From Argopecten irradians (lineage: Eukaryota; Mollusca; Bivalvia; Pectinida; Pectinidae): DNA of 64,000 nt. Position 1 is the first letter of the stretch. Each line of letters begins with the position of its first letter. The position numbers were made by a program, and so were the translations under genes. This document shows positions 4,641 to 64,000 of this stretch, one piece after another. The notes under the pieces were generated by a model that searched no databases, had not been told where the DNA came from, and was given only the letters and a program-made list of their open reading frames with translations. The stretch covers positions 39,199,996 to 39,263,995 of the forward strand of contig NC_091143.1 in the NCBI RefSeq assembly GCF_041381155.1, read 5' to 3'.

Positions 4641-4658
4641 GGTAACAAGAATTGTTAA

Positions 4659-31200: not shown

Positions 31201-34200
31201 TGAATAGGTCTGAAGCTAAAAAGACAAACATGTCCAAACGATGATGCATGTATTAGATTAAATCAATGTTAATTCATCTTAATTCATTCCAGAGAGGAAA
31301 ATGCTGGAATGAATTCTTCTGCTTCAAATATGTTTATATATATATATTGGCCTTGAAAATGTGTAAAGATCTTTAACAACAAAAATATATTGTATGAGAA
31401 AATTTATTTATTTATAAGTTACGATCGCTCAAGCAGAACATAACTCTATATGTTAATGTAATCAACCTAGTAACAAAATGATATTGCACACAATAAAATG
31501 CACCTATCAATTAATTTGCATATTTTACAGAAATAAAGAAATTTATGGTATTCCTATTTTCAGTCTGCATTTTGATAAAAGAGTTTAATTTTGCTAGATA
31601 ATCAAGCAAACTTGAGGCTACAAAAAGTACGTGTTACAGGCCAGTCCAGGTGCTAATTGCGATGAGGGCACATATTTAGTAATGTACAGTATATTTTATA
31701 CAGTAAACTCTATACATAATGATATAGTTTAATATGAGATACTTTCTATGACAAAAAAGGACATAAAAGTTTTTTTTCTTCTATCGTTATATATATAGTC
31801 AGCTCAATATTATTAAATGTAGTGGTCGATCATTGTACTGTTAGAAGATGTTTTAGGACTTAATTACTCCAACCGTTCACCGATTTGTCACCCATTTTAG
31901 CTGTGGGAGGTTAAATTCTCCGTCAACCCCTAGGGTATGACAGATTGCACATGCTAACCTTTTGAACCTGAAGACAATTGCGTGACGTCATGACTTCGTG
32001 CGGTGTATCAATATTGACGTGCAGATGACGGAACCATGTTCATATCATGGTGAAAATGCTTCTTTTTAGGCTATTATCTCTTCTTTTTCTTTTGTGTATG
32101 GAAAAAAAATGACATATTCCCTATCTATGAGGTTGTGACAACAAAATCACAACCCTCAGGGGAATTCCTGAATGTCCAAAGCTGGACAAATTAGCCTCAG
32201 GTTGGACGTTCGTGAATTACCCCTCGGGTTGTGATGTTGTTGTCACACCCTCTAGGTAGGGAAAGATTCTAACATTAATTTAGTGCCAAGATCAGGTTCA
32301 TTACAACTCTGTCACTGTTTAGTTCTTATCTTTTCTCATCTATTCCAGAGAAGAGAGGGCAACCCGCAAGACCTGTGAAACTTGATGGACATAGACAAGT
32401 GGCTGGAAGATTTGAAGGGGAGCCAACATATAAATGTAAGATCACTAAATCATGCTTGGACAACATATCAAAATGACTCAAAGTTCTGTTAAAGTTTTTT
32501 ATTTTATTTTACTTCAAATATGATGTATAACAGTTGCTGAAAAAAATCTTTTTGAATGAAGATGTGTTGTACAATTTTCATGCTAATAGTTTAGCATCCT
32601 CGAAACTCCAGGGGTTCTGATCACTTACAATCTCTACACCCCTGGTCTATCTCAAAGTGAAACTGATTTGGAAGCTCAAGGAAGAAAATCTGAACCAATC
32701 ACACAGGCCTGAAAAGATTTTCTTTGAAGACTACAGACAGAGTGACACCCAACTTCAAAACCACACAGTCAACCATAGTGTACCGTTTTACGTAGGGCTC
32801 TTTTGATGTACAATGTTCATCACAGGACTTAAATACCTGTTCTGTTGCCTCCAGTTTTACTATGTGATAGTCCAGGGGTGTTGAGATCGTAAGTGATCGG
32901 AACCCCTGGAGTATTGAGGATGATAGGGATTTAGGGACAGTGGAGGTAGCGACAATCCCACATACAAGATAATCAGAATAGTTTGAACAACATCAAGTAT
33001 TTGAAAATATTTGCAAACATATTTCCTATCATTTTCTATTTCAATGACTTAATAGTCATACTGTATTAGACCCAATATGTGCCCAGTACGCTTGAAACAT
33101 TGAAATAAATAAGGGGGCGCTTAATAGAATAATTTTGGACTAGCCTTTCATAAAATCACTGTACAAAATAACCAATAAATCATTTTGTAAAAGAAATCAT
33201 GAAAGAAATCTATAGCTTTCGTATTTTTAGCCTGAATTTAATTCAAGGTAAATGAAAGTGAGACCTAAAAAAGATGGAGGGGCTCTTATAGGGATGGGGG
33301 CGCTTATTGGGTAGAATATGGTATTACAGTCAAGGATGAACTTGAACTTTTAAAACTACAAAAATGTGATAGATTGGATTTATTCAGTTTAAACATTTTT
33401 TCTTGGAAGGATCCTAATTTAAAAATATTCATCAAAGAAAGTTTGAACGGAAACATCAGTAATCAAACTGCATATTCTATTTTGTAGCTGACTACAAGAA
33501 GTGGGATATGTCCGGCCGTGTAGGTCCAGCCACTAATGTTGATGCCTGGGTGCCCCCTAATGCCAAGTTTGAGGGTGAGAGTACCATGCACCATGACTAT
33601 ATGCAGCATGCACAGCCTAGACGTCCTCTCATCAAACCTGCCGAGGCCACGCGTATGTCTGATCAGCCATTCTTCGACAAAACAGACTACCGAGACTCCT
33701 ACGTCAAGCACCCAATGGAGAAGCAGTTTGTACGTCCCGCAGAGATCTACAAAGGCCCACAGGCCCCGTTTGATGGACAGACAACCTTCAAACAAGACTT
33801 CCTAGGTCGTCTAGGGGAGAAGACGCAGAGCTTCAAGCCTGAAGGAGTAGCATTCCAATCCGGTGCACCATTAGAAGACAACACAACAAACCGCAACGAC
33901 TATAAGAAATGGCCAACACAGCGCCCCTATTACCATGCCCCAGATATTTACAAGGCTCCTGAGGGAAAGATGGAGACCAACACAACTCATAATTCTACCT
34001 ACAGACAATTCCCCATCCAGAGGAGCCTAGCCAAGCGTCCAGATTCTGCCAACAAGGCAAGGAGTGCTGCATTCGATGGTAGCACCAGCTATATGAACGA
34101 CTACATTAAGTGGGAGATGGGACAGAAGAATATGCCAATAGTTCGTAACGACTACCACCCGACTGAGGCACCTTTTGAGGGAATGTCCACACACAAGGCC

Positions 34201-36739: not shown

Positions 36740-37285
36740 ATCTACATGTATGTCAGAATATCGTAATAATGACAGCTATGTCAGTATATCGTAATAATGA
36801 CAGCTATGTCAGTATATCGTAATAATGACAGCTATGTCAGAATATCGTAATAATGACAGCTATGTCAGTATATCGTAATAATGACAGCTATGTCAGTATA
36901 TCGTAATAATGACAGCTATGTCAGTATATCGTAATAATGACTTGGTTATGTCAGTATATCGTAATAATGACTTGGTTATGTCAGTATATCGTAATAATGA
37001 CTTGGTTATCTCAGTATATCGTAATAATGACTTGGTTATGTCAGTATATCGTAATAATGACTTGGTTATGTCAGTATATCGTAATAATGACTTGGTTATG
37101 TCAGTATATCGTAATAATGACTTGGTTATCTCAGTATATCGTAATAATGACAGCTATGTCAGAATATCGTAATAATGACAGCTACATGTATGTCAGAATA
37201 TCGTAATAATGACAGCTACATGTATGTCAGAATATCGTAATAATGACCTAGCTATGTCAGTATATCGTAATAATGACCTAGCTTT
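36740..37285 (+). repeat. Satellite, left block of 28- and 30-bp units
   Basis: About 18 units of the ATATCGTAATAATGAC satellite. The first units are 28 bp (linker AGCTATGTCAG). The next eight are 30 bp with the linker TTGGTTATGTCAG or TTGGTTATCTCAG, and the last few return to other linkers, some with an ACATGTATG extension. The open frames here (87 and 89 codons) are by-products of a 30-bp period. Confidence 0.95.
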
Positions 37286-37595
37286 GACAGTATTTAAGCA
37301 TTAAACTATCTTCCTTTGGCATCTATGGTCTATATAGATGCCAGAGCTTTGCAGACAATCCTCATAATGCGCGCTAGCATTTACATTGTTTAAGCTAGGA
37401 CCAGGAAAACCATTTATCTACGATGATTTAATCCACAAGAATTAAGGAACAGCCATTTTGACGGTGATCAGTTGACGTCACCACGTCATAATGGTCACGT
37501 TTTGGGTTTCAGTTATTCCGTCATATACTTCACTTTGCCTTGGTTAGTTTATATAGTAGAAGTGACATGGGAATGTAAATATGTCGCCATAATGA
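37286..37595. other. Unique island inside the satellite
   Basis: About 310 bp with no satellite units. Contains ATGCCAGAGCTTTGC, GTTGACGTCACCACGTCATA and TAATGGTCACGTTTTG. It separates the left block from the main array. Either an insertion or the original single-copy DNA between two amplified blocks. Confidence 0.75.
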
Positions 37596-40500
37596 CCTAG
37601 GTATGGCATCATATCGTAATAATGACCTAGCTATGTCAGTCAGTACTAGTATCGTAATAATGACCTAGTTATGTCAGTATATCGTAATAATGACCTAGCT
37701 ATGTCAGTACATCGTAATAATGACCTAGCTATGTCAGTACATCGTAATAATGACCTAGCTATGTCAGTATATCGTAATAATGACCTAGCTATGTCAGTAT
37801 ATCGTAATAAGGACCTAGCTATGTCAGTATATCGTAATAATGACTTAGCTATGTTAGTATATCGTAATAATGACCTAGTTATGTCAGTATATCGTAATAA
37901 TGACCTAGCAATGTCATATCGTAATAATGACTTAGCTATGTCAGTATATCGTAATAATGACCTAGCTATGTCAGTATATCGTAATAATGACTTAGCTATG
38001 TCAGTATATCGTAATAATGACCTAGCTATGTCAGTATATCGTAATAATGACCTAGCTATGTCAGTATATCGTAATAATGACCAGCTATGTCAGTATATCG
38101 TAATAATGACTTAGTATGTCATATATCGTAATAATGACTTAGCTATGTCAGTATATCGTAATAATGACCTAGCTATGTCAGTATATCGTAATAATGACCT
38201 AGCTATGTCAGTATATCGTAATAATGACCTAGCTATGTCAGTATATCGTAATAATGACCTAGCTATGTCAGTATATCGTAATAATGACCTAGCTATGTCA
38301 GTATATCGTAATAATGACCTAGCTATGTCAGTATATCGTAATAATGACCTAGCTATGTCAGTATCGTAATAGACCTAGTTATCGTAATAATGACCTAGCT
38401 ATGTCAGTATATCGTAATAATGACCTAGCTATGTCAGTATATCGTAATAATGACCTAGCTATGTCAGTATATCGTAATAATGACCTAGCTATGTCAGTAT
38501 ATCGTAATAATGACCTAGCTATGTCAGTACATCGTAATAATGACCTAGCTATGTCAGTATATCGTAATAATGACCTAGCTATGTCAGTATATCGTAATAA
38601 TGACCTAGCTATGTCAGTATATCGTAATAATGACCTAGCTATGTCAGTATATCGTAATAATGACCTAGCTATGTCAGTATATCGTAATAATGACCTAGCT
38701 ATGTCAGTATATCGTAATAATGACCTAGCTATGTCAGTATATCGTAATAATGACCTAGTTATGTCAGTATATCGTAATAATGACCTAGCTATGTCAGTAT
38801 ATCGTAATAATGACCTAGCTATGTCAGTATATCGTAATAATGACTTAGCTATGTCAGTATATCGTAATAATGACCTAGCTATGTCAGTATATCGTAATAA
38901 TGACCTAGCTATGTCAGTATATCGTAATAATGACCTAGCTATGTCAGTATATCGTAATAATGACCTAGCTATGTCAGTATATCGTAATAATGACCTAGCT
39001 ATGTCAGTATATCGTAATAATGACCTAGTTATGTCAGTATATCGTAATAATGACCTAGCTATGTCAGTATATCGTAATAATGACCTAGCTATGTCAGTAT
39101 ATCGTAATAATGACCTAGCTATGTCAGTATATCGTAATAATGACCTAGTTATGTCAGTATATCGTAATAATGACCTAGTTATGTCAGTATATCGTAATAA
39201 TGACCTAGTTATGTCAGTATATCGTAATAATGACCTAGCTATGTCAGTATATCGTAATAATGACCTAGCTATGTCAGTATATGTGTAATAATGACCTAGC
39301 TATGTCAGTATATCGTAATAATGACCTAGCTATGTCAGTATATCGTAATAATGACCTAGCTATGTCAGTATATCGTAATAATGACCTAGCTATGTCAGTA
39401 TATCGTAATAATAACCTAGCTATGTCAGTATATCGTAATAATGACCTAGCTATGTCAGTATATCGTAATAATGACCTAGCTATGTCAGTATATCGTAATA
39501 ATGACCTAGCTATGTCAGTATATAGTAATAATGACCTAGCTATGTCAGTATATATCGTAATAATGACCTAGCTATGTCAGTATATCGTAATAATGACCTA
39601 GCTATGTCAGTATATCGTAATAATGACCTAGCTATGTCAGTATATCGTAATAATGACCTAGCTATGTCAGTATATCGTAATAATGACTAGCTATGTCAGT
39701 ATATCGTAATAATGACCTAGCTCATGTCAGTATATCGTAATAATGACCTAGCTATGTCAGTATATATCGTAATAATGACCTAGTTATGTCAGTATATCGT
39801 AATAATGACCTAGCTATGTCAGTATATCGTAATAATGACCTAGCTATGTCAGTATATCGTAATAATGACCTAGCTATGTCAGTATATCGTAATAATGACC
39901 TAGCTATGTCAGTATATCGTAATAATGACCTAGCTATGTCAGTATATCGTAATAATGACCTAGCTATGTCAGTATATCGTAATAATGACCTAGCTATGTC
40001 AGTATATCGTAATAATGACCTAGCTATGTCAGTATATCGTAATAATGACCTAGCTATGTCAGTATATCGTAATAATGACCTAGCTATGTCAGTATATCGT
40101 AATAATGACCTAGCTATGTCAGTATATCGTAATAATGACCTAGCTATGTCAGTATATCGTAATAATGACCTAGCTATGTCAGTATATCGTAATAATGACC
40201 TAGCTATGTCAGTATATCGTAATAATGACCTTAGCTATGTCAGTATATCGTAATAATGACCTAGCTATGTCAGTATATCGTAATAATGACCTAGCTATGT
40301 CAGTATATCGTAATAATGACCTAGCTATGTCAGTATATCGTAATAATGACCTAGCTATGTCAGTATATAGTAATAATGACCTAGCTATGTCACAGTATAT
40401 CGTAATAATGACCTAGCTATGTCAGTATATCGTAAGAATGACTAGCTAGTCAGTATATGTCAAAGAATGACCTAGCTATGTCAGTATATCGTAATAATGA

Positions 40501-43300
40501 CCAAGCTATGTCAGTATATCGTAATAATGACCTAGCTATGTCAGTATATCGTAATAATGACCTAGCTTATGTCAGTATATCGTAATAATGACCTAGCTAT
40601 GTCAGTATATCGTAATAATGACCTAGCTATGTTGTATAATCGTAAGAATGACTAGCTCCAGTATATCTGTTAATAATGAACCTAGCTATGTCAGTATATC
40701 GTAATAATGACCTAGCTATGTCAGTATATCGATCGTAATAATGACCTAGCTATGTCAGTATATCGTAATAATGACCTAGCTATGTCAGTATATCGTAATA
40801 ATGACCTAGCTATGTCAGTATATGTAATAATGCTAGCTATGTCAGTACATATAAAATAATGACCTAGCTAATGTCAGTATATCGTATATAATGAACTAGC
40901 TATGTCAGTATATCGTAATAATGACCTATGTAGCTATGTCAGTTATCGTAATAATGACCTAGCTATGTCAGTATATCGTAATAATGACCTAGCTATGTCA
41001 GTATATCGTAATAATGACCTAGCTATGTCAGTATATCGTAATAATGACCTAGCTATGTCAGTATATAGTAATAATGACCTAGCTATGTCAGTATATCGTA
41101 ATAATGACCTAGCTATGTCAGTATATCGTAATAATGACCTAGCTATTATGTCAGTATATAGTAATAATGACCTAGCTATGTCAGTACATCGTAATAATGA
41201 CCTAGCTATGTCAGTATATAGTAAGAATGACCTAGCTATGTCACTATGTATCGTAATAATGACCTAGCTATGTCAGTATATCGTAAGAATGGACCTAGCT
41301 ATGTCAGTATATTGTAATAATGACCTAGCTATGTCAGTATATCGTAATAATGACATAGCTATGTCAGTATTATCGTATGTCAGTATAATGTGAATAATGA
41401 CCTATCTATGTCAGTATATCTGTATTTAGTAATAATGACTTAGCTATGTAAGTATATAGTAGTAATGATAGTATGTCAGTATATCGTAATAATGACCTAG
41501 CTATGTCAGTATATGCTAAGTTCAGTAGTAATATGACCTAGCTATGTCAGTATATCGTAATAAATGACCTAGCTATGTCAGTATATCGTAATAATGACCT
41601 AGCTATGTCAGTATATCGTAATAATGACCTAGCTATGTTCAGTATATCGTAAAAATAATGACCCTAGCTATGTCAGTATATCGTAATAATGACCTAGCTA
41701 TTGACTCCTAGTATGTCAGTATATCGTAATAATGACCTAGCTATGTCAGTACAATCGTAATAATGACTAGCTATGTCAGTATATCGTATATAATGACTCT
41801 AGCGATGTCAGTATATCCGTAGACCTAGCTAAGTCAGTATATCGTAATAATGACCTAGCTATGATAGTACATTGTAAGTATGACATTAGCTATGTCAGTA
41901 TATCGTAATAATGACCTAGCTAAGTCAGTATATCGTAATAATGACCTAGCTATGTCAGTATATCGTGAATAATGACCTAGCTATGTCAGTATATCGTAAT
42001 AATGACCTAGCTATGTCAGTATATCGTAATAATGACCTTGCTATGTCAGTATATCGTAATAATGACCTAGCTTATGGTCAGTAAATGAGTAATAATGACC
42101 TAGCTATGTCAGTATGTTGTAATACATGAACAAGCTATGTCAGTATATCGTAAAAATAACTCCTTAGCTATGGTCAGTATATCGTAATAATGACCAAGCT
42201 ATGTCAGTATATCGTAATAATGACCTAGTTATGTCAGTATATCGTAATAATGACCTAGCTATGTCCGATCAGTATATCGTAATAATAACCTAGCTATGTC
42301 AGTATATCGTAATAATGACTCTAGCTATGTCAATATATCGTAATAATGATCTAGCTATGTCAGTATATCGTAATAAGGACCTAGCTATGTCAGTATATCG
42401 TAATAATGACCTAGCTATGTCAGTATATCGTAATAATGACCTAGCTATGCTGTCAGAATAGCTATTCGTATTTGTAATAATGTACCTAGCTATGTCAGTT
42501 ATCGTAATAATGACCTAAGCTCTATGTGTCAGTTTATCGTAATAATGACCTAAGCTATTGTCAGTAGTATAGTAGAAATGACCTAGCTATGTCCAGTATA
42601 TAGTAATAATGACCTAGCTATGTCAGTATATCATAATAACTCCCTTAGCTATGTCAGTATATCGTAATAATGACCTAGCTATGATCAGTATATTGTAATA
42701 ATGACCTGCTATGTCAGTATATCGTAATAATGACCTAGTTATGTCAGTTATATCGTAATTAATGACCTAGCCTATGTCAGTATATTGTAATAATGACTTG
42801 CAATTATCTCAGTATATCGTAATAATGACCTAGTTATGTCAGTACATCGTAATAATGACCTAGTTATGTCATTATATCGTAATAAATGACTTGCTTATGT
42901 CAGTAATATCGTAATAATGACCTAGCTATGTCAGTTTATCGTAATAATGACCTAGCCTATGTCAGTATATCGTAAATAATGACTTGATTATCTCAGAATA
43001 TCGTAATAATGACCTGCTATGTCAGTATATTGTAATAATGACCTAGCTAATGTCAGTATATCGTAAATAATGACCTAGCTATGTCAGTATATCGTAATAA
43101 TGACCTAGCTATGTCAGTATATTGTAATAATGACTATGATTATCTCAGTAGCTATTCGTAATAATAACCTAGCTATGTCAGTATATCGTAATAATAGCTA
43201 CCTATCTAATAATGTCATGTGTATATTGTAATAAATGACTAATGACCTAGCTAGCTATGATTATCAGTATATCGTAATAATGCACCTAGCTAATTGATAC
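37596..43300 (+). repeat. 30-bp satellite, main array (~190 units)
   Basis: The unit contains ATATCGTAATAATGACC and TAGCTATGTCAGT and is exactly 30 bp in the core (about 38,400-40,380), where most neighbours are identical and the commonest variants are CTAGTT for CTAGCT and ACATCG for ATATCG. Units to the left of the core vary mildly (CTTAGC). Units to the right (40,430-43,300) carry many single-base insertions, deletions and truncations. No spacers, so this is not a CRISPR. A 30-bp period is a multiple of three, so long frames reading MSVYRNNDLA repeats appear (up to 295 codons). They have no start context, break at indels and should not be annotated as genes. Confidence 0.97.
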
Positions 43301-50903: not shown

Positions 50904-53015
50904 ATGGAACGAATTGAGAAGCACGTGGTATCCATGGAGAAAACATTGGACTCCGCCAGAAGATGGCGCTCTTTTTCAGTCTGTTTGTTGATTGTGATTA
51001 TATTTCTAATGGCGACCATTGCGACAACCATAGTGTATTATGAATTGATCATGCGGCCCAAAAAACTTGCCAGCCACGCCGGTGTTCAGGAAACATCTGA
51101 TATGGAAGATGAGCCGACGGTTCCATCATTATTTCGTGATTTAACTAAACAAGAATTGAAAAGATTGAAGGAGTACTTGTATAAACAGCGCATTTTTAAC
51201 TTAAATAACAACGAACCCGTCACTTTAAGTTCAAGTTTCTTGTTTTTGTCCGAATTACACCTTCCAAATAAATCGCACGCATTGGAAACTTTAAATGATC
51301 ACCACAAAGCGCCACCTAGGGAGGCAAAAGTTGTGTTTTTCAGGGGAGATAAGAACATTCCTGTAGTCGAAGAATACGTTATTGGACCACTGTCGAACAT
51401 TACGTATCATCGCTTACTTGTGTCAAAGCACTACCAAAGGCCGGCGCCATTTCTTTTCAGACCGAACAGCAAAGCAGAATATCAGGAGGTACAGAGACTT
51501 TTAGTTGATGTTGACAACGTCCTCAAACACGTTTTACTTGAAAGTTATGACGCGCGATTTTTCAATTGCGACCGGAAGTGTTTAGTTATGCATCGGTGGA
51601 CAGCTGTTTCGCCAGCCGTGTCGGGTAGTGACGTACGTAAAGTGTGGTATTGGGCACATCACTCCACTGAATATTATATTTTCAATCCTATAGATTTCTT
51701 CATTCTTTTTAACTTGGATGGAAATGATCCCAGCCTTTTCCACGTGGAGAGTATTTGGTACAATGGTCAGACGTTCGATAAAGCTGAATATTTAGCAGAT
51801 GCTTATACAGCAGGAACTATCAGGAAATCAGTCATGATGTTTCCCAAAGATAAACCAATCTCAACTCTCAACTTAAGAGGTGACCGATTTCCAGAGAAGA
51901 ACCTGCGTAGTCCTCGACAGGTTGAGCCGGACGGTAAACGTTACAGCCGGAAGGACAGACATGTTACCTATATGGGATGGGAGTTTGATTTCCGGATGTC
52001 CACCATGACTGGTCCGCAGCTTTTTGATATCAAACACATGGGACATCGAATTGTGTACGAACTGAGTCTGCAGGAAATTGCCTCATTTCACTCGGGATAC
52101 AAACCATGGAACCGTTACTCGGACATGATGTATAGCAACGTTTTATTGGGCTATCATGCACGCGACCTGGTTCCGGGGTCAGACTGCCCTTCATCTGCTT
52201 CTTATATCAGCGCTACCCATTGGACTGAACATCACAATGACCCTGTCACTTATGAACGTGCTTTCTGTCTGTTTGAGCAGAGTACTGGCGTGCCACTCAG
52301 GCGACACCATGCTTATGATAAAATGTCTGGCCGGTTTTACGGCTCCCTGGAGGATATTGTTCTGGTTCTGAGAGCAATTATTACAGTGTTCAACCAAGAC
52401 TGTATTGTGGATTTTATTTTCCACCAAAATGGTGCTTTAGAAGTTAAAACATCGCTAACCGGTTATATGTTAGCAATGCTACACTCGCCCCCCGAAGGAA
52501 GATATGGATTCCAACTTCGAGAGAGACTTATCGGGACACTCAGTCAACACGCATTTAATTTCAAAGTCGACTTTGATATTCATGGGACTAAAAACCGATA
52601 TGAGACATTGCAGTTTGAGCCACATTCGATAAATAACAACGATTGGTCAGTGGAAAAGAATGCAAGATACGAGCAGATTAAGTTTACCAGAAATTCAAAA
52701 ATGACAGAACTTCATACTTTATATCGTGAAAACACCAGCGTCCCATTGTACCACATATTCTACAATAAAGACTATAAAACCACATACAACGATCCAAGAG
52801 CCTATCGTTTACAAATCGACGGCGGATTAACACACCTACTATCACGTGGTATGGGGAACGAGCCGTCGATATCGTGGGCACGCCATCAGATGGCGGTGAC
52901 TCGCCGGAAAGACGACGAAGGACAAAGTAGTTCTATTTACGCAACATGGGATAGAAAGGAACCTATAGTTAATTTTCAAAGTTTCCTCGACGATAATGAA
53001 AGTATTGTTGATACG
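50904..53015 (+). CDS. Amine oxidase-like gene (plus), exon with start codon
   Basis: Acceptor at 50,893-50,894, then AACGAGGCA in frame before ATG at 50,904. I take this Met as the start because the membrane anchor follows at a normal distance. The exon ends GATACG|GTAAGT at 53,015 after residue 704. Reading on would give only four more codons before a stop. Confidence 0.9.
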
Positions 53016-56000
53016 GTAAGTTATCTTTAGTTATGGAGATTTTTTGACAAAAATTAGTGTGTGATTGTATGCTATTTCACATGTTTTGTCATCCTCGATA
53101 CTCCAGGGGTTCCGATCACTTACGATCTCTACACTCCTGGACTATCTCATAGAGTAAATCTTAAGACAGCTCAGAGTAACAAATTTTAACCAATCACAGG
53201 CTTGCAAAAATGTTCTCTGAATACTACAGAGAGAGCCTCTGAATACGACAGAGAGAGCGACAACTTACTTCAAAGCCACACAGCCAACCACAGTGTACCG
53301 TTATATGGCTCTTTTTATCATATAACTAAAATACCTGTTCTATTGCCTCCAGTTTTACTATGAGATAGTCCAGGGGTGAAGAGATCGTAAGTGATCAGAA
53401 TTCCTGGAGTATCGAGGATGTTGCTTAGTAAGTTATTTTTGGAAATATGACATATTCGTCGTAAGAAATAGTGAGATAGGTTCTAATTGTGAATGGGTTA
53501 ATTACCACAACCAATACAAAAATCCTTCCCTTATAATGGAATCATTACAACTATTTCTGTGTTCAGATTGGTAAATGTTCCTGTTTAACCGCTTCGTATT
53601 ACTGATGTGGAGCTTGGATTTTGAATATTTCCAATGTCATGCTGTTTTACATACTCGATACTCTAGGGGTTACGATTAATGTCGTTCGGTATATCCACCC
53701 CTCATAGTAAAACTGGAGGCAACAGAACAGAACATATGATTTAGTCCTTTGATGTACATCAAAAGAGCTATATAACGGTACACTGTGGTTGACTGTGTTG
53801 CGTCGCTCTCTCTCTCTCTCTTTCTCTGTACATAGTCTTCTAAAGAAGGCATGCGATTGGTCAGAGTTTTTTCTTCTGTACTGTCTTTAGTTTTACTACG
53901 CGATAGTCCAGGATGGATGTAATGACAGTGAAAGTAACTTCTGAAGTATCGAGGAAGGCTAGTTATGGCACAGCATTTTCAAGAAATCAAGGACATATTC
54001 TTAAAACTGTTTGAAAGCTGACCGGTTTGTAGTGGTTAGTTACAATGGTGTTGTCAAGTTATAAGTAAGTCCCGTCACCATCTTTAGGTGGACAATTTAA
54101 TCGTCATTTCTTACGTGGTTCGTAAACATTGCTTGTTATCACTTTTTTCAGGAGCTTTAGTTGATCTTTCTCAAATGTCATAAGCAGGTTTCTCTTAGAC
54201 CCTAGTTGTGGATATTGCATTGTCAGATCGATACAAGATGGTCGACAGGAAGTCATCTTTTGATTTTGGTAGTTGATGTTCATAACCACTTTTTCTCTGA
54301 AGGGATCTTTCATTGTAATGTCACATATATGTTCCCTTTGGTCCCTAGATATCCATATTAACATGGCTGACGGCCATCTTTGGTATTGACAATGGCAATT
54401 TTTTACCTTGATATCTCTGAATGTACGTTTTCATATGTAGTATTTAATACGTCCATTATGGATTAACAATAATACCTCTTTATTTACAAATACTTTATTT
54501 TGTTATGGAAAAGACATATATCCACCTTTAATATTTCAAACAAATTTTTGACTGTTTATATGTAGAGTGCCCATGTTTTCAAAGGTTCTATTGGAAAAGT
54601 AAAAACAGAAAAATCAGAGAAAAATGAATGATGAAGATCTATGAATGGTGTTCGTCACGTTAACTGTGAGATTTCTTGTTTGATATTTAGTTAGATGGCT
54701 TTGTTTGTGAATAGCCTGTCTTTTTAAAACAATACAGAATATTATAGAATTTGGGAAGATGATTTGTCTCGCTCCTTAAATTATCTTATCATATTGATGG
54801 ATTCAGAATTGTGTGGTTTAAGTATGTCTCTAAAATGCATAATGTCATACATTTGTCATTTTTGTCAACACTATCGTACCTCACGGATTTTGATGGTCCA
54901 TTCAAAGACTCGCTTACATGGTGGGTTTTCTCTGTCGATATTAAGGGAGTTAAGTTATGTAAATTACAAATGATGAATACAATGTATATGACTGGTGTTT
55001 TATCTGAAAGTCAGACATTTCACTGGCAGTTACCGAGGCGAGGACTCTCTATCTATTAAATGTGTCTGGGGAAAATGGTAACTTGTGACAAAGTTTTTTT
55101 TTGGAATTTTTCATTTGTAATTTCAAAACACATCAGTAATAAAAAGTTTTGAATAGAAGTATTCACCGATCTGAACTTACAACGATAGACTAGCATCTTA
55201 CATTGGAAGTGACCAATAACGTTTTTCTTGACACAATCCTAAAACCAGGTAGATCGTTGGGGAGGTAAATCACCGTCGGTTCAGTGGTTACTATCACTGA
55301 CGTTATATCTATCTCAAAGTATAACTAGAGGCAGTTCAGGAGATGAACATCAAAGGATCAAATTACCTGTGTCTTCCAATGCCTCCAGTTTTACTATGGG
55401 ATAGTCTAGGGTGGTTATAACGTCAGTAATAGTAACCCCTGGAGTATCGACGATGGTGGTATATATGCTGACATTTTATCTTACTGTTGTCGATCTCACT
55501 TTTATAGTTGAATGAAATAGAATTATACATTGAACCATCTAAACATAAGTTTTACTAAATTTCAAATACATATTTCAATCATTTACTACTGAAGAGTTTG
55601 TGGTATTTTCAAGCTTGATTCGGACATGTCAATTGATTCAGCATTGGTTGGTCGTTATTACAATTTTTCTCCATAAAAATATTATTTTCTAATATAATGA
55701 AGCTTCTACAGGCAAATGAAATATGATGATACTTTACTTAGTGTTGAAACTAAAATGGTCATTGAAAAGTTTGGTCACTATCATTGTATTATTGACAAGT
55801 TGTATTATTATTGTATTATTTATTTATTTATTTATTTATTTATTATTTATTTATTTATTTATTCAAACCTTCATCTTTACAGGATTTGGTCGCCTGGATA
55901 ACACTAGGACTTCACCATCTACCACAAATGGAAGATATCCCGCTTATTTCATCTATAGGCAAGCGGCCATCTTTCTTTTTGACGCCATTCAACTTCCATG

Positions 56001-56185
56001 ACTCCGATCCTTCTATGGCGTCAAGGGATGCAGTGCGCATGTCATATGATGGTATTTCCGGATCTCAACTAAATGTGAAAGTTGAAAATTATGGAATCTC
56101 GAAAGAATATATATGCGCTTCTGAATATCAAAGAGAAAATACTAAAACGTATTCTAATATATCTTCGTTATTTGAACAAACTTAA
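50904..56185 (+). CDS. Copper amine oxidase-like protein, predicted pseudoenzyme
   Basis: Two exons, 50904-53015 and 55883-56185, join in phase 0 to give 804 residues. A single membrane anchor (about residues 25-48, VCLLIVIIFLMATIATTIVYY) follows a short basic head, as in the type II AOC3/VAP-1 layout. The N2 and N3 domains and catalytic domain follow. The catalytic domain is well conserved (ELSLQEIASFHSGYKP, RAFCLFEQSTGVPLRRHH), but key residues are changed. The TPQ-precursor Tyr of the N-Y-D motif is Gln498 (VFNQDCIVDF), the catalytic-base Asp position is Tyr410 (DMMYSNVLLG), and the first His of the copper HxH pair is Ser547 (SQH). The second His (549) and the distal His716 remain. Without the Tyr no TPQ can form, so oxidase activity is not expected. 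The frame has no stop or frameshift, so it appears maintained. Confidence 0.93.
53090..53420. mobile_element. CATCCTCGA-type MITE, copy 2
   Basis: A 331-bp element with ends CATCCTCGATACTCCAGGGG and its inverse, and GATCACTTACGATCTC and its inverse inside. Interior shared with copy 1 (TATTGCCTCCAGTTTTACTA). A TATGGCTC string matches the equivalent region of copies 1 and 3. Confidence 0.88.
53650..53957. mobile_element. CATCCTCGA-type MITE, copy 3
   Basis: CATACTCGATACTCTAGGGG at the left, and GAAGTATCGAGGAAG at the right. The long inner arms include CATAGTAAAACTGGAGGC. A CT microsatellite (53,807-53,825) is inside. More diverged than copy 2. Confidence 0.75.
54100..54400 (-). mobile_element. 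Pearl core fragment, reversed
   Basis: On the minus strand it matches the Pearl-like core at 3.2-4.6 kb: GAAAGATCCCTTCAGAGAAA, AAAATGATGACTTCCTG-like text, ATGCAATATCCACAACTAGG and CATTTGAGAAAG. About 1.5-2 diverged core units. The 86-codon minus-strand ORF at 54,104-54,364 is read from this repeat and is not a gene. Confidence 0.6.
54401..55284. other. Intron, nothing recognised
   Basis: No element or exon recognised. ORFs of 69 and 82 codons (54,764-55,059) have no family resemblance. Confidence 0.4.
55285..55455. mobile_element. CATCCTCGA-type MITE, copy 4, short
   Basis: Left TCACTGACGTTATATCTATC and right inverse (TATAACGTCAGTAATAGTAA, then CCCCTGGAGTATCGACGATG). Interior TGCCTCCAGTTTTACTATGG as in the longer copies. 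A subtype with ACGTTATA arms in place of GATCACTTACGATC; the relic at 571-664 belongs here. Confidence 0.7.
55883..56185 (+). CDS. Amine oxidase-like gene (plus), terminal exon
   Basis: Acceptor TCTTTACAG|GATTTGG. Encodes DLVAWITLGLHHLPQMED, where His716 is the distal copper ligand, then the conserved FFLTPFNFHDSDPSM and a short C-terminal tail, then TAA. The intron position (just before DLVAW) is the same in the minus-strand paralogue. Confidence 0.92.
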   Translation, partial: DLVAWITLGLHHLPQMEDIPLISSIGKRPSFFLTPFNFHDSDPSMASRDAVRMSYDGISGSQLNVKVENYGISKEYICASEYQRENTKTYSNISSLFEQT

Positions 56186-56206
56186 CTTATTTTCCCAAAA
56201 TTTCCA

Positions 56207-56212
56207 AATAAA
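56207..56212 (+). terminator. Polyadenylation signal AATAAA
   Basis: AATAAA 22 bp after the stop of the plus-strand amine oxidase-like gene, followed by an AT-rich, T-rich stretch. Implies a very short 3' UTR. Confidence 0.6.
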
Positions 56213-58015
56213 GTAATATATTATTAATTTTGTTTTGGCATTGCTATTCTTTATCTGGTGTTCTTGAAGAGTTCTTGGAAAGAATTTCACAAAAAAATCA
56301 TACTTCGGCTATTATTAGTATGAAATGACTACGTAATTTGTTTTTCGAATGCACTCTACAAAAAAATCCAAATGATCGCGCTATATAATGACCTTTATTA
56401 AAACCAAGCATAAATGTTAAGCACATTTTCTTCTGAAACGCAAGCATAGAAATTAAACACGTTCTCTTTTAGAAAGCAAGCAAAACTATTATACATATTC
56501 TTCTCTAAAACCCAATTATAAATATCTTGTACATACTCTTCCAAAACGTAAGCATAAATATTATAGATGACTTCAGTTGAAACCGAATATGTCTCTTCCA
56601 TAGCAAGCTCGTTTGACTTGATTTATATATATGACAAACACGTTATGATTGAAAATGGCCGTTTATTACAACGACGGATACATATCACTATGTATAAAAC
56701 AATCTATTTCATTTTATGTGTGAAATTACGCAATACGAAACGTAAATCTTCAAAGTTTTGTGCAAAACTAATAAACAAGTCAATGATGGAAGTAAAAAAA
56801 ACCGCCAGTAGTAATATTGTATTGGTAATGATTAAGTGAATACAATTATTGGAAACAACACAAAATATTATACATATTTACTGCTGAAACGCAAGCATTA
56901 TTACCTTAAACTTAGGTACTCGTATTAGACTAATCTAACAACAAACATATTACACTCTGTTCTTAAAGTTATATGTGCCGTAACGAGGCGAAGATTTTGA
57001 CATGTTATTTTTTCTTCACTTATCTATTGAAAACCATAAAGTTTGATGAATAAAGCTGTGAAAATCATTCAAATGACTTCAGATGTGTGATAAACGTTAG
57101 TGGCAACACATAAATTATGCACTTTTAAAACTGTTGTTTTATACCTTATGTGTGTTTATATGGAAAGTTCCCTGCAGAAATCACTTTACAATGACTAATA
57201 ACGCTATAAAAATGTTAAATGAAATTGTAGATCACGATTTGGCTTCATGGTCCGACCGTATGAACTCATTTCACTTCACTACAGATGTTAATATAATGAT
57301 TTTTGGCAGTACTGCCAAAAAACATTTTCAGCTCTTATATGTATTATTAAAATTAAAACATAAGCATTGAAAATACTGTAATTCTCAAAATGTTGGTAAC
57401 TTTTGATAATAAATTATAACAATTAAAAGCTCATCTTAATTCGTGAGAATGAAAAATACTTCACATATAACTTTAAACACAAACATGAATATTGTATGCA
57501 GAAGATGCCGCATGTAATATATAAGACATTTCCCTCCGTTCCTACTAAATCGAGGTATCACAATTCAATGTTAAGACAGTACTGTTATGTGATACTGTTG
57601 AACATATGCTTTTCCATCAAAAAGGTTATTTGATACTCCTGTTTTCAAACTGTTTACAATTTTACACTACAGGGTTTTAAGTTGATGAAACACAAACTAA
57701 GTAAACGCCTGTGGTAAAATAGGTCTATTACTACGAGTTATCCTTCTTTTTAAAGCACTAACACTATTTCTCATTCGCGATGATCAATGGCGACAACCAG
57801 ACGTCATAACCATATTACCAAAAGTTTAGATATGTTCTAGAGAACATAAAATTTTCACTTTACCATAATTCACATCATCTGTACAAAAGATCACACGTTC
57901 TCTTATCCCGGACAGGGATATCCACAATTTTACCGGTGTGAGAATTTTTTATCTCGTCCTAGGGTAAAGACAAGCTACACAAGATCTTTGCACATGAGAA
58001 AAAGAATAATCCATC
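56213..58015. other. Intergenic, loose repeats
   Basis: About 56,395-56,580 and 56,865-56,905 contain a loosely repeated string (TTCTTCTGAAACGCAAGCAT and variants, about 40-60 bp apart), a decayed tandem repeat. No gene recognised. Confidence 0.45.
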
Positions 58016-58017
58016 CT

Positions 58018-58135
58018 CTTTAGGGTGAAGCAGGAGATTTCAACCCTCGGATTAAGATTCGTACGCTGTCAAACACTCGACAAAACCTCTTATCCCTCGG
58101 GTTGAGATACTCCTGACTCACCCCTTCAAATCACC
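58018..58135. mobile_element. Foldback element with CCCTCGG motif
   Basis: AGGGTGAAGCAGGAGATTTC and AACCCTCGGATTAAGA pair with the inverse strings TCTTATCCCTCGGGTTGAGA and TACTCCTGACTCACCCCT. Arms are about 37 bp. Same CCCTCGG style as the elements at 19.1, 20.1 and 32.2 kb. Confidence 0.65.
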
Positions 58136-59595
58136 CGCACGGGTACACGGAGGTTAGATACATATGTTACCAAAGCGTAACCGTCCCTGCTTTTCTTTGT
58201 ATAGTAGATAATCCCGGTAACTATCATTAACAATAACGTCTGCGATTAAGGTAAACAATCCTTGTCGAATAATCATAATCTTGACGTGATCAATGAAATA
58301 AAAAAAAAATTGATAATCATTGAAGAGTAATTAGTTTTTAACAGACTTATTGTTATTATCATTATTATGGTATATTCTCCTTTATAGTTTCTGTCTCCTG
58401 GTTTAGGAAAACAAACACACGTTTCATGGTAATGTTCCTTACGTAGTATTAGATTACCCTTTCTGTTAAAAACGCTCTACCACCAAAATAGCATTTACGA
58501 TATTTATCATTTTAACTACTAACAATTTGTATTTACTCATGTAATTATATGTCTAACTAACACACAAATAATATACATTAACTTTTGCTTTTGGTGGATG
58601 CACAATCGGTACTTCATTCCATATAGTACATACAAATGTAGTATCATGAACTTTTTTCGGGACGCAATTCATTATTTTCAATACATGTATTTTGTATCTT
58701 GAAATAAAATAAGAAGCTGAACTTTTCAATGGCGGTAATGATGTGAAGTAAGCAACTTTTGTAACTGAAGGAAAATACTAATTCATCTGCTTCTGTTTTT
58801 GATAGAGAAAAATACTGCATTCGTCAGCGGTGTAGCATCTTTTTTTTGTTCTGCTTCCTGGCCAAGCTGACTTTGTGTTTGATATCGTAGTCAGGATAAC
58901 TTAGTAACAAAGGAACTAGCTCTGTAATATACAAAGGGTACATAAGTAATACACACGACACATTGTATATAGGCTGTTTATTTGTTTTAAAATACAAATA
59001 TCAATTGTTTGATCAGTATTAAATATTTCACATATATAAATTTTGATGATATTTACACTATACACAATATACAATCTGGACATGACTAAAACTGTAAACT
59101 GTACGAAATAGAAAGTGCCTTTTATCATCTGTTTTACAGTCAAATAGCATACTTATGGTATGGAGTGATGGGTTGTGGCAATTTTCGTTTTAATGATGAA
59201 TTCAGGAGACAATATAACAACTTAAGCTAGTTCGAATATGAAATGAATATTAAAAAACTATTGACACAATTTATGCACAATGTCAAATGCAAGATAAAAA
59301 TAGTAAACATTGTACTATGGGACATCTTCGGTTCATTAAACTGATTAAGTAAAAGATAGCCGTTGTAAAATAAGATATAATAGTAAGCAAATAGATAAAA
59401 TAGACGAGTATGAGATTCCACATAAAATCCACTGTAGTGTTATAGATGTATTAGGCCTACTAATCACAATACCACCATAGGTTACTCGTTATAGGAGAAG
59501 ACACTGGCATAAGTTAGTGACAGCCAATGGTTCATGGCCTCGGAGACTCTACTATATCGTACCCTGTCAGCCTCGCGACCATCCGGTCAGAGCGG
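58136..59595. other. Intergenic, nothing recognised
   Basis: AT-rich. Minus-strand ORFs of 75 and 64 codons (58,916-59,421) lack recognised content. Confidence 0.4.
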
Positions 59596-59597
59596 TC

Positions 59598-60860
59598 GAG
59601 AGTTAGTGGTCTAAATGTCAGACATAGTAACCACTTGGCCACTACGATCAAGAGGTAGAGAATTAGTGTTCAAAATATCAGATATAGTAACAACTTGGCC
59701 ACCACGATCAAGAGGCAGAGCATTAGTGGTCAAATATCAGATATAGTAACGACTTAGCCACCACGATCGATCAAGAGGTGGAGAATTAGTGGTCAAAATA
59801 TCAGATATAGTAACAACTTGGCCACCACGATCAAGAGGCAGAGCATTAGTGGTCAAATATCAGATATAGTAACGACTTAGCCACCACGATCAAGAGGCAG
59901 AGCATTAGTGGTCAAATATCAGATATAGTAACGATTTAGCCACCACGATCAAGAGGTGGAGAATTAGTGGTCAAAATATCAGATATAGTAACGATTTAGC
60001 CACCACGATCAAGAGGTGGAGAATTAGTGGTCAAAATATCAGATATAGTAACGATTTAGCCACCACGATCAAGAGGTGGGAGAATTAGTGGTCAAAATAT
60101 CAGATATAGTAACGACTTAGCCACCACGATCAAGAGGTGGAGCATTAGTGGTCAAAATATCAGATATAGTAACGATTTAGCCACCACGATCAAGAGGTGG
60201 AGAATTAGTGGTCAAAATATCAGATATAGTAACGACTTAGCCACCACGATCAAGAGGTGGTGGGAATTAGTGTCAAAATATCAAGATATAGTAACGATTT
60301 AGCCACCACGATCAAGAGGTGGAGAATTAGTGGTCAAAATATCAGATATAGTAACAACTTGGCCACCACGATCAAGAGGCAGAGCATTAGTGGTCAAATA
60401 TCAGATATAGTAACGACTTAGCCACCACGATCAAGAGGTGGAGAATTAGTGGTCAAAATATCAGATATAGTAACGACTTGGCCACCACGATCAAGAGGCA
60501 GAGCATTAGTGGTCAAAATATCAGATATAGTAACGACTTAGCCACCACGATCAAGAGGTGGAGAATTAGTGGTCAAAATATCAGATATAGTAACGATTTA
60601 GCCACCACGATCAAGAGGTGGAGAATTAGTGGTCAAAATATCAGATATAGTAACGATTTAGCCACCACGATCAAGAGGTGGAGAATTAGTGGTCAAAATA
60701 TCAGATATAGTAACGATTTAGCCACCACGATCAAGAGGTGGAGAATTAGTGGTCAAAATATCAGATATAGTAACGATTTAGCCACCACGATCAAGAGGCA
60801 GAGCATTAGTGGTCAAATATCAGATATAGTAACGACTTAGCCACCACGATCAAGAGGTTG
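59598..60860 (+). repeat. 60-bp satellite, about 21 units
   Basis: Unit contains GCCACCACGATCAAGAGG, ATTAGTGGTCAAAATATC and AGATATAGTAACGA. Two variants occur: GGTGGAGAATTAG with CAAAATATC (60 bp) and GGCAGAGCATTAG, usually with CAAATATC (59 bp). They partly alternate, mainly before 59,930 and again at 60,360-60,560. The first unit (59,598-59,655) is the most diverged. The 120-codon frame at 60,478-60,840 is a by-product of the 60-bp period. Confidence 0.95.
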
Positions 60861-60884
60861 ATATTTCATGCAAAGTGGCACGCA

Positions 60885-60930
60885 ATGCATATATATATAT
60901 ATATATTAAATCATATTTCATATATATATA
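60885..60930. repeat. AT dinucleotide tract
   Basis: Two short (AT)n runs next to the end of the 60-bp satellite. Confidence 0.8.
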
Positions 60931-61104
60931 CTGGCTTTTGAAATACATGTTGAATAGTGTATTTTAGTTTTTCCTGATATTCTACCAAGGCCAGGTGTAG
61001 CTATTACATAGATATTCTGGTATTACATTTTAATTATCTCAATAGCTACTTTCCCGGGGATATAATCTCGGCCTGCACTTTAACATTTTATCATCGAACG
61101 AATT

Positions 61105-61110
61105 TTTAAT
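61105..61110 (-). terminator. Possible polyadenylation signal ATTAAA
   Basis: ATTAAA on the minus strand about 33 bp beyond the stop of the minus-strand amine oxidase. A common variant signal, but AT-rich context makes chance likely. Confidence 0.35.
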
Positions 61111-61143
61111 ATCTGCAATTAGATTGCTTGAAATCACGTTTTT

Positions 61144-61464
61144 TTATATAGCTGTTGAACCACTTCCGTCTTCGACCACTAGCCCTGGAGTATTCTTTAA
61201 CATTTCAAAGTAAGGGTTCTTTTTCGCTACACATTGCTTCTCCTCCTCGGGTCCGTACTTTATAATCCGGATTCCGTCTTGTGGTTTAGATTTATCCTTA
61301 AGTTCGATACGGACCGAACTTTTGGAGGAAATGGCGGGGTCTTCAGTGAAGTAATTGTAAGGAAGGAGGAAAAAATTCAGGTCCATCCCCGCGGAGTGGG
61401 TCACAGGAAGGTCCTCAGTATGTGGGATATGATGTACACCCATCGTTACCCAGGCAACCAAATC
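61144..61464 (-). CDS. Amine oxidase (minus), terminal exon
   Basis: Acceptor CTGTATTACAG|GATTTGG. Encodes DLVAWVTMGVHHIPHTEDLP, FFLLPYNYFTEDPAIS and a C-terminal tail ending VVEDGSGSTAI, 106 residues. Confidence 0.92.
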   Translation of the reverse strand, partial: DLVAWVTMGVHHIPHTEDLPVTHSAGMDLNFFLLPYNYFTEDPAISSKSSVRIELKDKSKPQDGIRIIKYGPEEEKQCVAKKNPYFEMLKNTPGLVVEDGSGSTAI

Positions 61465-64000
61465 CTGTAATACAGAAAATGTTGTTACTCAAGATCAACT
61501 GAAACTGGTATAAAGAACTTATTTTTGGTATACAGATACGGAAATATTAACGGGAGAACTCTTGATATAAAAGCTATATAACTAATCGCTCAGTCCGTCA
61601 ATGGAATGGTATGTTTGTATGGTATTCTTTAACACAGATATTGACTTTTTTTATGGACCGACAGAAAAAAAATTAAAACAATTCTACTTTGTCTGTAAAT
61701 TATCGTTAAAGGGACAATTCAGTCTAAGAGTACATTAAAACTTGCATATATTTCGGAAACAAACCAGTTCTAATGGAAATTAGATTAGTTTTTTTAATTG
61801 TGATATGTCAGAAAAACCCACTGTAGTCAAATGTATGTGAAATGTTCAATCGCCATAACGCATAGCCTTGTATATCGAACCCTGACTCTTGCCTGTGAAG
61901 TAAAATATTGTTTTGTCTAGAACTTCTCAAATCGCTCTTACAGTTGTGTTAACATTATTAGAAGTTCTCGTCTAAAATAATTTCATCAACTCCTCAGTGT
62001 TTATGTATTGCATTTGTTTAACGTGCGTGACTTTGACTCGGGTAAAGGTACAGCGTACATGTTGTACCTGCTTAATCGTATTGATCAACGATTTGGAATT
62101 TCAATGGTATTAATCAAAATACTTAACAATGTTGTGGAATTTGTCACTATTTCTTGTCATATGTTTCATAAGGAATGAAGAACAATACAATTATGTCATA
62201 TTTTGCTTCGTGGTTATGTAATGAATTAGCCTCACTGAATTGTCCCTTTAATATCTAGACACAGATATTTTTAATTACAGACGACGCACGGGGCCAGTTA
62301 CACCTTCGAATTCAATACCCAAAGCATTAATTTACATAAGTCAATTGGTTCAGATAAGTCGGCAAATTGGAGGCACACGTAACTATTGAATTTTTAACGT
62401 AACAAAACTAGCACAAGGTAGACAACCGTTAGTTTTGCTTCAATAAATATTATGCTATCGCTGATTATAATGATATAAAATATTACTAAGCATACCTCGT
62501 CTTGGATGGATTCATCGTCATCTATGAAGCTCTGAAACTGTACCACGGGGTCCGAGGAGTCCGAGTAGGCATACCCGGAACTACTCCTTCTTTCCGATTC
62601 TTTGTACTTTGTTACTGCAACTTGGTATCTGGACCAACTTGCTGCCGGCTCATTCCCTTCACCTTGACTGAAGAGTTGTTTTACCATTCCTTTGTTCACA
62701 AGACGGTATGCTTTTGGATTTCCGAACGCGTTTTTCTCCTGTTCGTTGTAGAAGAGGAGATACTTCGGTGTCTCGAAGTTGAATTTGTAAGCTCCGTCCC
62801 GTTCAGTGGCCTTGACCTCTCGAGTGAATTTTGTCATGTGATACCTAGCGTTTTGTTTAGCGGAATAATCATTTGGTGTAGTAGTAGAGGTAATGTCCCA
62901 TGTTGCAAATCTGTTGGACGTCCCTTTGATGTCCATGTCAACCTTGAAGTTAAACAGATGAGTGTGCAGGTTTCCGTGTAATTCATCATGGATCCGTGCC
63001 CCGTAGGGATCTTCTTCTGGTGTATGGAAATTAGGAAATATATACCCTGTTGACATAGAACGAACCTCAATAACTCCGTTCTGGTAGAAGAAGAAATCGA
63101 TAACGTAATCATAATTCACAACAGAAAAAACTGTCCTGAGTGTAAGCACTGCGTTTGGCATCCCCTCGTAAAAGCCACCGTATCCTGCGGCATATGCCTG
63201 ATGTCGCCTCAGTGGGTAGCCAGTGTTTTGCTCAAACAAACAGAATGAGTTCTTGAATGTTACAGGTTCTTTCGATGACTCAAGGACAAAGGATGTATCC
63301 ATGAAAGTCGCATGGAGTGGACAGTCTACACCGGGAACCAATCCTTTATCTTGAATACCTAAAAGAGTGCAACTGTCGAAATAGTCCGGAAACTTTGCGC
63401 CCGGTTTCAAACCTGAGTAAAGAACTACAATTTCTTGCAGACTGATTTCGTAAACGATTCTCTCATTCCGGAATTGGACATCGTAGACCTGTGGTCCAGA
63501 GACTGGAGACATTCTGTAGTAGAATTTCCATCCCAGATACTCCACACGATTGTGATGCACAGAGTACCTCTTGCCATCAGGTTCAAACTGCAGCGGTTCT
63601 CTCTTGAATCCCTCTTGAAATGCTGGGCCACGTCTTGTAAGTTTTGAAAATGTGTTGTCATTTTCTTCTGGGAAAACAACTTTCATCTTTCTTACTGACC
63701 CATCAGCATAACCTGCTGCCAGTTCTTCAAATGTGCTAAATGTTTGTCCATTGTACCACACAGATTCCACAACAGTACTTTGTGTGTCGTGATTAAAGTC
63801 AACTAATACAGAAAAGTCAAGGGGATGGAGATCGAAAAATTCGATCAGACGATACATTGTGAACCAGGTTTTTCTTCCGTCTGGCACGCCGGAAACTGCA
63901 GGCGAAAATGGAGCTGGGAACTGCATTGTCAAACATTTTTTCCCGCAGTCCCTGAATTTACCACCAAAACTCTCCCAAACAAGATCATAGAGAGTTGTGT
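61144..64000 (-). CDS. Copper amine oxidase (AOC family), 5' partial
   Basis: Exons 64000-62496 (continues past the window edge) and 61464-61144 join in phase 0 for 607 visible residues. Catalyses oxidative deamination of primary amines to aldehyde, H2O2 and ammonia using copper and TPQ. All catalytic residues I can place are intact: N-Y-D motif VVNYDYVIDF with the TPQ Tyr codon at 63,111-63,113, catalytic-base Asp in DYFDSCTLLG (63,375-63,377), copper HTH at 62,958-62,966, and distal copper His in VHHIPHTEDLP (61,429-61,431). The conserved ISLQEIVVLYSG and FCLFEQNTGYPLRRHQ are present. The N-terminal anchor or signal lies outside the window. It is the paralogue of the plus-strand gene at 50.9-56.2 kb, arranged tail to tail. 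Confidence 0.94.
61465..62495. other. Intron of the minus-strand amine oxidase
   Basis: About 1.03 kb, no element recognised apart from the pair AAAGGGACAATTCAGTCTAA (61,709) and the inverse-like TCACTGAATTGTCCCTTTAA (62,232), which look like the two ends of a ~540-bp eroded MITE. Confidence 0.5.
62496..64000 (-). CDS. Amine oxidase (minus), main exon, partial
   Basis: Donor GACGAG|GTATGC. The frame stays open to the window edge, where it reads LVWESFGGKFRDCGKKCLTM. This aligns with LLESYDARFFNCDRKCLVM of the plus-strand paralogue, so the true start lies outside the window. Confidence 0.93.

Follow-up and report, generated by a model that had tools for sequence, protein, structure and literature searches.

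Copper amine oxidase genes at the locus

The stretch of DNA analysed here (the window; 64,000 nucleotides of Argopecten irradians, contig NC_091143.1, positions 39,199,996 to 39,263,995 of the forward strand, that is, 39.20–39.26 Mb of the contig called C10 below) carries two copper amine oxidase genes, gene J on the plus strand and gene D on the minus strand, whose proteins are 40% identical (Table 1). An initial annotation made from the letters alone had described a tail-to-tail pair consisting of an apparent pseudoenzyme (gene J) and an intact enzyme (gene D). The two genes are indeed convergent, and all eight core residues defined below are intact in gene D, but the pair belongs to a larger family. 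A six-frame PF01179 search of the 846-Mb assembly, which gives only minimum counts for large families, detected at least ten copper amine oxidase genes, and the same ten were recovered with exon 1 of gene J as protein query. Six of them form a 130-kb cluster (C10, 39.18–39.31 Mb), with I and J on the plus strand and D, C, B and H on the minus strand; F and E are paired at 10.58 and 10.61 Mb, and A (on C11) and G (on C1) are single genes. One phase-0 intron directly before a D-[LI]-V motif is common to eight of the genes, A and G having no intron there.

Gene J is a full-length homologue of 804 codons, without a stop in the spliced frame. Exon 1 matched the PF01179 enzyme domain (255.5 bits) and the PF02727 N2 domain (37.6 bits), and exon 2 matched PF01179 (41.7 bits), which places the product in the copper amine oxidase sequence family. 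The membrane anchor and open frame reported by the initial annotation were both found intact, the anchor being an AOC3-like N-terminal hydrophobic stretch at residues 26–44 (mean hydropathy 2.9). Most of exon 1 is homologous to AOC3/VAP-1 and AOC1, as seen with the solved structures 1pu4 (a membrane amine oxidase, which we take to be AOC3; E = 1.3e-83), 3mph (E = 5.9e-106) and 3hi7 (E = 8.4e-106). A stretch that we label arm I is present by alignment, with 14 of 20 consensus columns matched. The exon junction reads GATACG/GTAAGT...TTTACAG/GATTTG. Because an acceptor-like TTTTAG lies nine bases ahead of the ATG and a CAG is similarly placed in genes B and D, gene J probably has an intron in its 5' untranslated region. 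A bacterial promoter scan upstream of gene J was set aside as meaningless in an animal.

Active-site residues lost and kept in gene J

Eight core columns were defined from the literature: the tyrosine that is the precursor of the cofactor topaquinone (TPQ), its flanking Asn and Asp/Glu, the base Asp, a Tyr bonding to TPQ and the three copper His. In AOC3, the core comprises the TPQ Tyr, the catalytic Asp386 and His520/522/684 (PMC7144023), and in HPAO-1 the strictly conserved Tyr305 hydrogen-bonds O4 of TPQ, Asp319 is the base, and Asn precedes and Asp/Glu follows the TPQ Tyr (PMC3382800). At these columns gene J carries His396, Tyr410, Asn497, Gln498, Asp499, Ser547, His549 and His716, four of the eight being changed.

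The initial annotation had listed three losses affecting catalysis or copper binding: N-Q-D in place of N-Y-D, Tyr at the column of the base Asp, and SQH in place of HTH. All three proved real when the codons were read and when gene J was aligned with 3mph, 3hi7 and 1pu4 (three of the 41 matched solved sequences, compared residue by residue), the alignments being gap-free through the motifs and the TPQ column being printed as X in 3mph and as Y in 3hi7. A fourth loss had been overlooked, namely His396 in place of the Tyr that bonds TPQ. This residue aligns with Tyr in all three structures, and its distance from Tyr410 equals the spacing of 14 between Tyr305 and Asp319 in HPAO-1. The claim that copper binding was hit stands for the first His only, since two of the three copper His (His549 and His716) remain. 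Unlike AOC3/VAP-1 and AOC1, gene J therefore lacks one copper His, the Tyr that bonds TPQ, the TPQ Tyr itself and the base Asp; all nine other genes have both Tyr, the Asp and all three copper His. Retained in gene J are the Asn and Asp on either side of the TPQ position, five Cys (428 and 455, found in all nine other genes, and 222, 226 and 782, found in eight) and a D-x-D motif, presumably the structural calcium site. At least six base changes separate the four lost core codons from the conserved residues, two of the codons needing two changes each, in agreement with the earlier remark that a single sequencing error would not suffice.

TPQ arises autocatalytically from Tyr with copper and oxygen (PMC3382800). 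Because the Tyr from which TPQ forms is absent, gene J cannot make the cofactor, and because, in addition, the amine half-reaction fails without the base Asp, its product is not expected to act as a TPQ amine oxidase. By this established chemistry, TPQ catalysis has almost certainly been lost.

Concentration of the changes in the core

Gene J departs from the conserved residue at four of the eight core columns, whereas the other nine genes together do so in one of 72 cells (Fisher P = 2.1e-4), the sole exception being Asn to Ser in gene A. The Tyr305 column had been added after gene J was seen to break it; without this column, the counts were 3/7 in gene J and 1/63 in the others (P = 0.002). 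Of 71 columns that do not vary among the other nine genes, gene J breaks eight, four of which fall among seven core columns (hypergeometric P = 0.002; 0.017 without the Tyr305 column). When each gene was left out in turn, the breaks numbered 12/75 for I, 11/74 for H, 3/66 for A, 26/89 for G, 1/64 each for D, C, E and F, and 0/63 for B. Genes I, H and G thus break more invariant columns than gene J, none of them core, and only A among the nine touches the core. At the 299 columns with one residue shared by D, B, E and F, gene J matches 67%, H 62%, I 58%, A 62% and G 42%.

A first scan for bacterial relatives with the animal alignment found none. A bacterial query yielded 33 loci. Among the 21 that were translated, N-Y-D/E and H-x-H were present in all and the third-His motif in 20, the one miss (L035) having two stops. 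These loci were picked by conserved patterns and 20 of the 21 come from one bacterial group (presumably actinobacterial genera), so that they provide no real base rate.

Selection on gene J

A codon model of eight genes (722 columns; C omitted as decaying, G as too distant) gave a shared omega (ratio of nonsynonymous to synonymous rates) of 0.103. Fixing omega of gene J at 1 was 30 log-likelihood units worse; freeing it was 8.4 units better than the shared value, but with a branch of 39 and an omega of 0.006, at the parameter limit, to which the estimate runs because synonymous sites are saturated. In a split-branch model from which the lost columns and Cys500 had been removed (717 columns), the best fit gave gene J a terminal neutral phase of zero. 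The interpolated 95% limit was about 0.125 neutral substitutions per codon, which is tighter than the limits for H, I and A (these with all 722 columns), and at this limit six changes in eight core codons have P = 6e-4. Simulated neutral change, with indels not counted, left 1% of gene J frames free of stops at 0.05 per site and none of 400 at 0.1 per site, a drift that places about nine stops in the frame.

In the protein tree, the end branch of gene J (1.10) is no longer than those of the core-intact genes I (1.30) and A (1.50) and slightly longer than that of H (0.91), and gene J was placed beside the B/C/D/E/F clade with weak support (65/75). That gene J is simply fast-evolving was ruled out, its branch lying within the range of H, I and A, whose cores are intact bar the Asn of A. 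The changes in the core columns seem to have come about under continued constraint on the remainder of gene J, and outside the core the gene appears, from these comparisons, to be under the same constraint as the other family members. The mark of a pseudoenzyme, selection that outlasts the loss of catalysis, was seen for gene J, within the paralogues of one genome and with synonymous sites saturated; neither a broken frame nor neutral evolution, the marks of a pseudogene, was found. The base changes, the open frame, the branch length and the codon model together support the earlier view of gene J as a pseudoenzyme, as opposed to an error or a pseudogene of recent origin.

Interpretation and alternative explanations

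Pseudoenzymes are well known across many families. We give about an even chance to the reading that we favour, in which gene J may be a maintained, non-catalytic protein of the AOC family with a binding role at the cell surface and no enzyme chemistry. As the sequence shows, gene J has lost the residues that form TPQ (Tyr), hold it (Tyr) and act as base (Asp), together with one of three copper His, and has kept its full-length frame, splice sites, hydrophobic anchor and five family Cys. On this reading it would have dropped the chemistry that produces H2O2, and its product would be a non-catalytic dimer displayed at the cell surface, with an ectodomain that serves in ligand binding or adhesion, comparable to the binding of Siglecs by VAP-1/AOC3. 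VAP-1 is a type 2 membrane protein, which the N-terminal anchor of gene J resembles, and has Siglec-9 and -10 as ligands (PMC6306676). Its engineered inactive form Y471F retains expression and overall structure (PMC6306676), so an AOC fold without TPQ can stand, as is proposed for gene J, although Y471F is one laboratory change and gene J has four natural core losses.

Two other groups of genes offer comparisons. In Arabidopsis, AtCuAO-epsilon1 and -epsilon2 are, like gene J, members of the copper amine oxidase family without essential active residues, but they are described as fragment copies (PMC12058724), whereas gene J is full length. Mollusc shell-matrix copper amine oxidases belong to the animal family, have several members and are a possible setting for gene J; the available parts of the papers describing them mention no inactive member (PMC4660305, PMC8059625, PMC8933548). 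Among the titles and abstract openings listed from a partial literature on inactive or on bivalve and oyster amine oxidases, none reported a full-length, selected, natural amine oxidase without TPQ. VAP-1 has both enzyme-dependent and adhesive roles, and a natural member that keeps the fold without the chemistry would, if true, allow the adhesive role to be studied alone.

Several observations weigh against the favoured reading. VAP-1 Y471F supports fewer leukocyte contacts (PMC6306676). No N3 domain was matched by Pfam in exon 1 of gene J, and an AlphaFold model of residues 66–704, computed with D and 14 bacterial rows, had a mean predicted local distance difference test (pLDDT) score of 46 and was not used. 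No omega for gene J alone is reliable, the pairwise synonymous divergence of gene J from D and from H could not be computed owing to saturation, and the constraint found is a mean along a very long branch, drawn from the old paralogues of one genome rather than from orthologues and with synonymous change saturated. Columns within three residues of the core match in 11 of 22 cases, compared with 188 of 277 elsewhere, a difference that is not significant (P = 0.10). Possibly, too, an early loss of catalysis was followed, only very recently, by the loss of all function in gene J.

Among the alternatives, it is rather unlikely that gene J is a regulatory subunit pairing with a core-intact AOC such as D, whose activity it would tune or halve, since the active-site channel of each monomer is lined by arm I of its partner. 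AOC3 forms a tight dimer whose arm I reaches across to the partner's active site (PMC7144023), a truncated VAP-1 isoform has been suggested to heterodimerise with the full-length form and to regulate it (PMC6306676), and gene J is both clustered with core-intact copies and well matched in the putative arm I. J and D are nevertheless only 40% identical, and sharing a cluster does not show co-expression. A more specific version, in which gene J would be an old, dedicated dead subunit of the cluster's intact AOCs and arm exchange would make it a channel gate or an activity dimmer, seems improbable. Of the two roles that the initial annotation had inferred for gene J, binding at the cell surface would be our likeliest guess and that of a heterodimer partner the second.

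The two copper His that remain, together with a new His and Cys at active-site columns, could be read as TPQ-independent chemistry or as a metal site made of His549 and His716 with His396, Cys500 or Gln498. We regard this as quite improbable: we know of no TPQ-independent chemistry for the copper amine oxidase fold, the predicted model is poor, and the two His may persist by inertia. That gene J is a pseudogene whose function is over and whose frame is still unbroken gains some plausibility from its fellow cluster member gene C, which looks decaying, so that loss does occur here. It is nonetheless very improbable, given 804 codons without stop or frameshift, good splice sites, a polyadenylation signal, losses gathered in core columns and a neutral phase with the narrow limit given above. 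It is scarcely credible that a sequencing, assembly or gene-model artefact conceals an intact motif; the sequence comes from a single assembly, and a DNA search for a second allele of gene J matched only gene J itself, but the losses occupy four separate codons within one open exon. An alternative exon was ruled out, the plus-strand enzyme-domain matches listed in the window being the two exons of gene J only.

Neighbouring genes and other features of the window

Gene D runs on to about position 64571, 571 bases beyond the end of the window, and its spliced frame has no stops. Gene I (L009, C10:39181000-39190999, plus strand) ends about 13 kb before the window; in its open frame, most of the hydrophobic stretch is not preceded by an ATG, and the start of the gene may lie on an unseen upstream exon. 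Gene A (L017, C11:33794000-33803999, minus strand) has S-Y-D instead of N-Y-D. Changing the same Asn to Ala in HPAO-1 lowered TPQ formation to 5–10% (PMC3382800), and gene A may for this reason form its cofactor poorly.

Gene C (L012, C10:39271000-39280999, minus strand), about 20 kb from gene J, is the sister of B (91% protein identity). A 26-bp tandem duplication causes a frameshift in its exon 2, and the ATG present in B and D is missing from it. Gene C is probably a copy in decay, although the duplication may be an assembly error. All eight core residues are kept, and the pattern is the reverse of that in gene J, with a broken frame and an intact core as opposed to an open frame and a lost core. 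Elsewhere in the window, an open frame matches SAXO1-2 (stabilizer of axonemal microtubules; 140 bits), and three tandem or other repeats were noted, the 6.4-kb minisatellite among them having long stretches open on both strands.

Table 1. Coordinates of gene J, of the part of gene D inside the window and of other features.
Feature	Position	Strand	Basis or remark
Acceptor-like TTTTTGTTTTAG upstream of gene J start codon	50883..50894	+	sequence only
Gene J exon 1	50904..53015	+	residues 1-704; anchor, N2 domain, bulk of enzyme domain
His396 (CAC), replacing the conserved Tyr that bonds TPQ O4 (HPAO-1 Tyr305)	52089..52091	+	alignment; Tyr in nine other genes
Tyr410 (TAT), replacing catalytic base Asp (AOC3 Asp386)	52131..52133	+	alignment; Asp in 9/9 others
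Gln498 (CAA), replacing TPQ precursor Tyr (AOC3 471)	52395..52397	+	alignment; Tyr in 9/9 others
Cys500, replacing second Tyr of N-Y-D-Y	52401..52403	+	nine others: Tyr (8) or Phe (gene A)
Ser547 (AGT), replacing first copper His (AOC3 His520)	52542..52544	+	alignment
His549, second copper His, kept	52548..52550	+	alignment
D-x-D (Asp556, Asp558), kept	52569..52577	+	alignment
Gene J intron, phase-0, GT..AG	53016..55882	+	sequence
Gene J exon 2	55883..56185	+	residues 705-804 (to 56182) and stop codon (56183-56185)
His716, third copper His, kept, in exon 2	55916..55918	+	alignment
AATAAA polyadenylation signal of gene J	56207..56212	+	sequence
Gene D exon 2 with stop	61144..61464	-	neighbour, core residues intact
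Gene D exon 1, part in window	62496..64000	-	eight core residues intact
155-base repeat	3323..4648		
Open frame matching SAXO1-2	33508..34482	+	
6.4-kb minisatellite	36749..43195		30-base unit, about 214 copies
Minisatellite between genes J and D	59594..60858		60-base unit, about 21 copies

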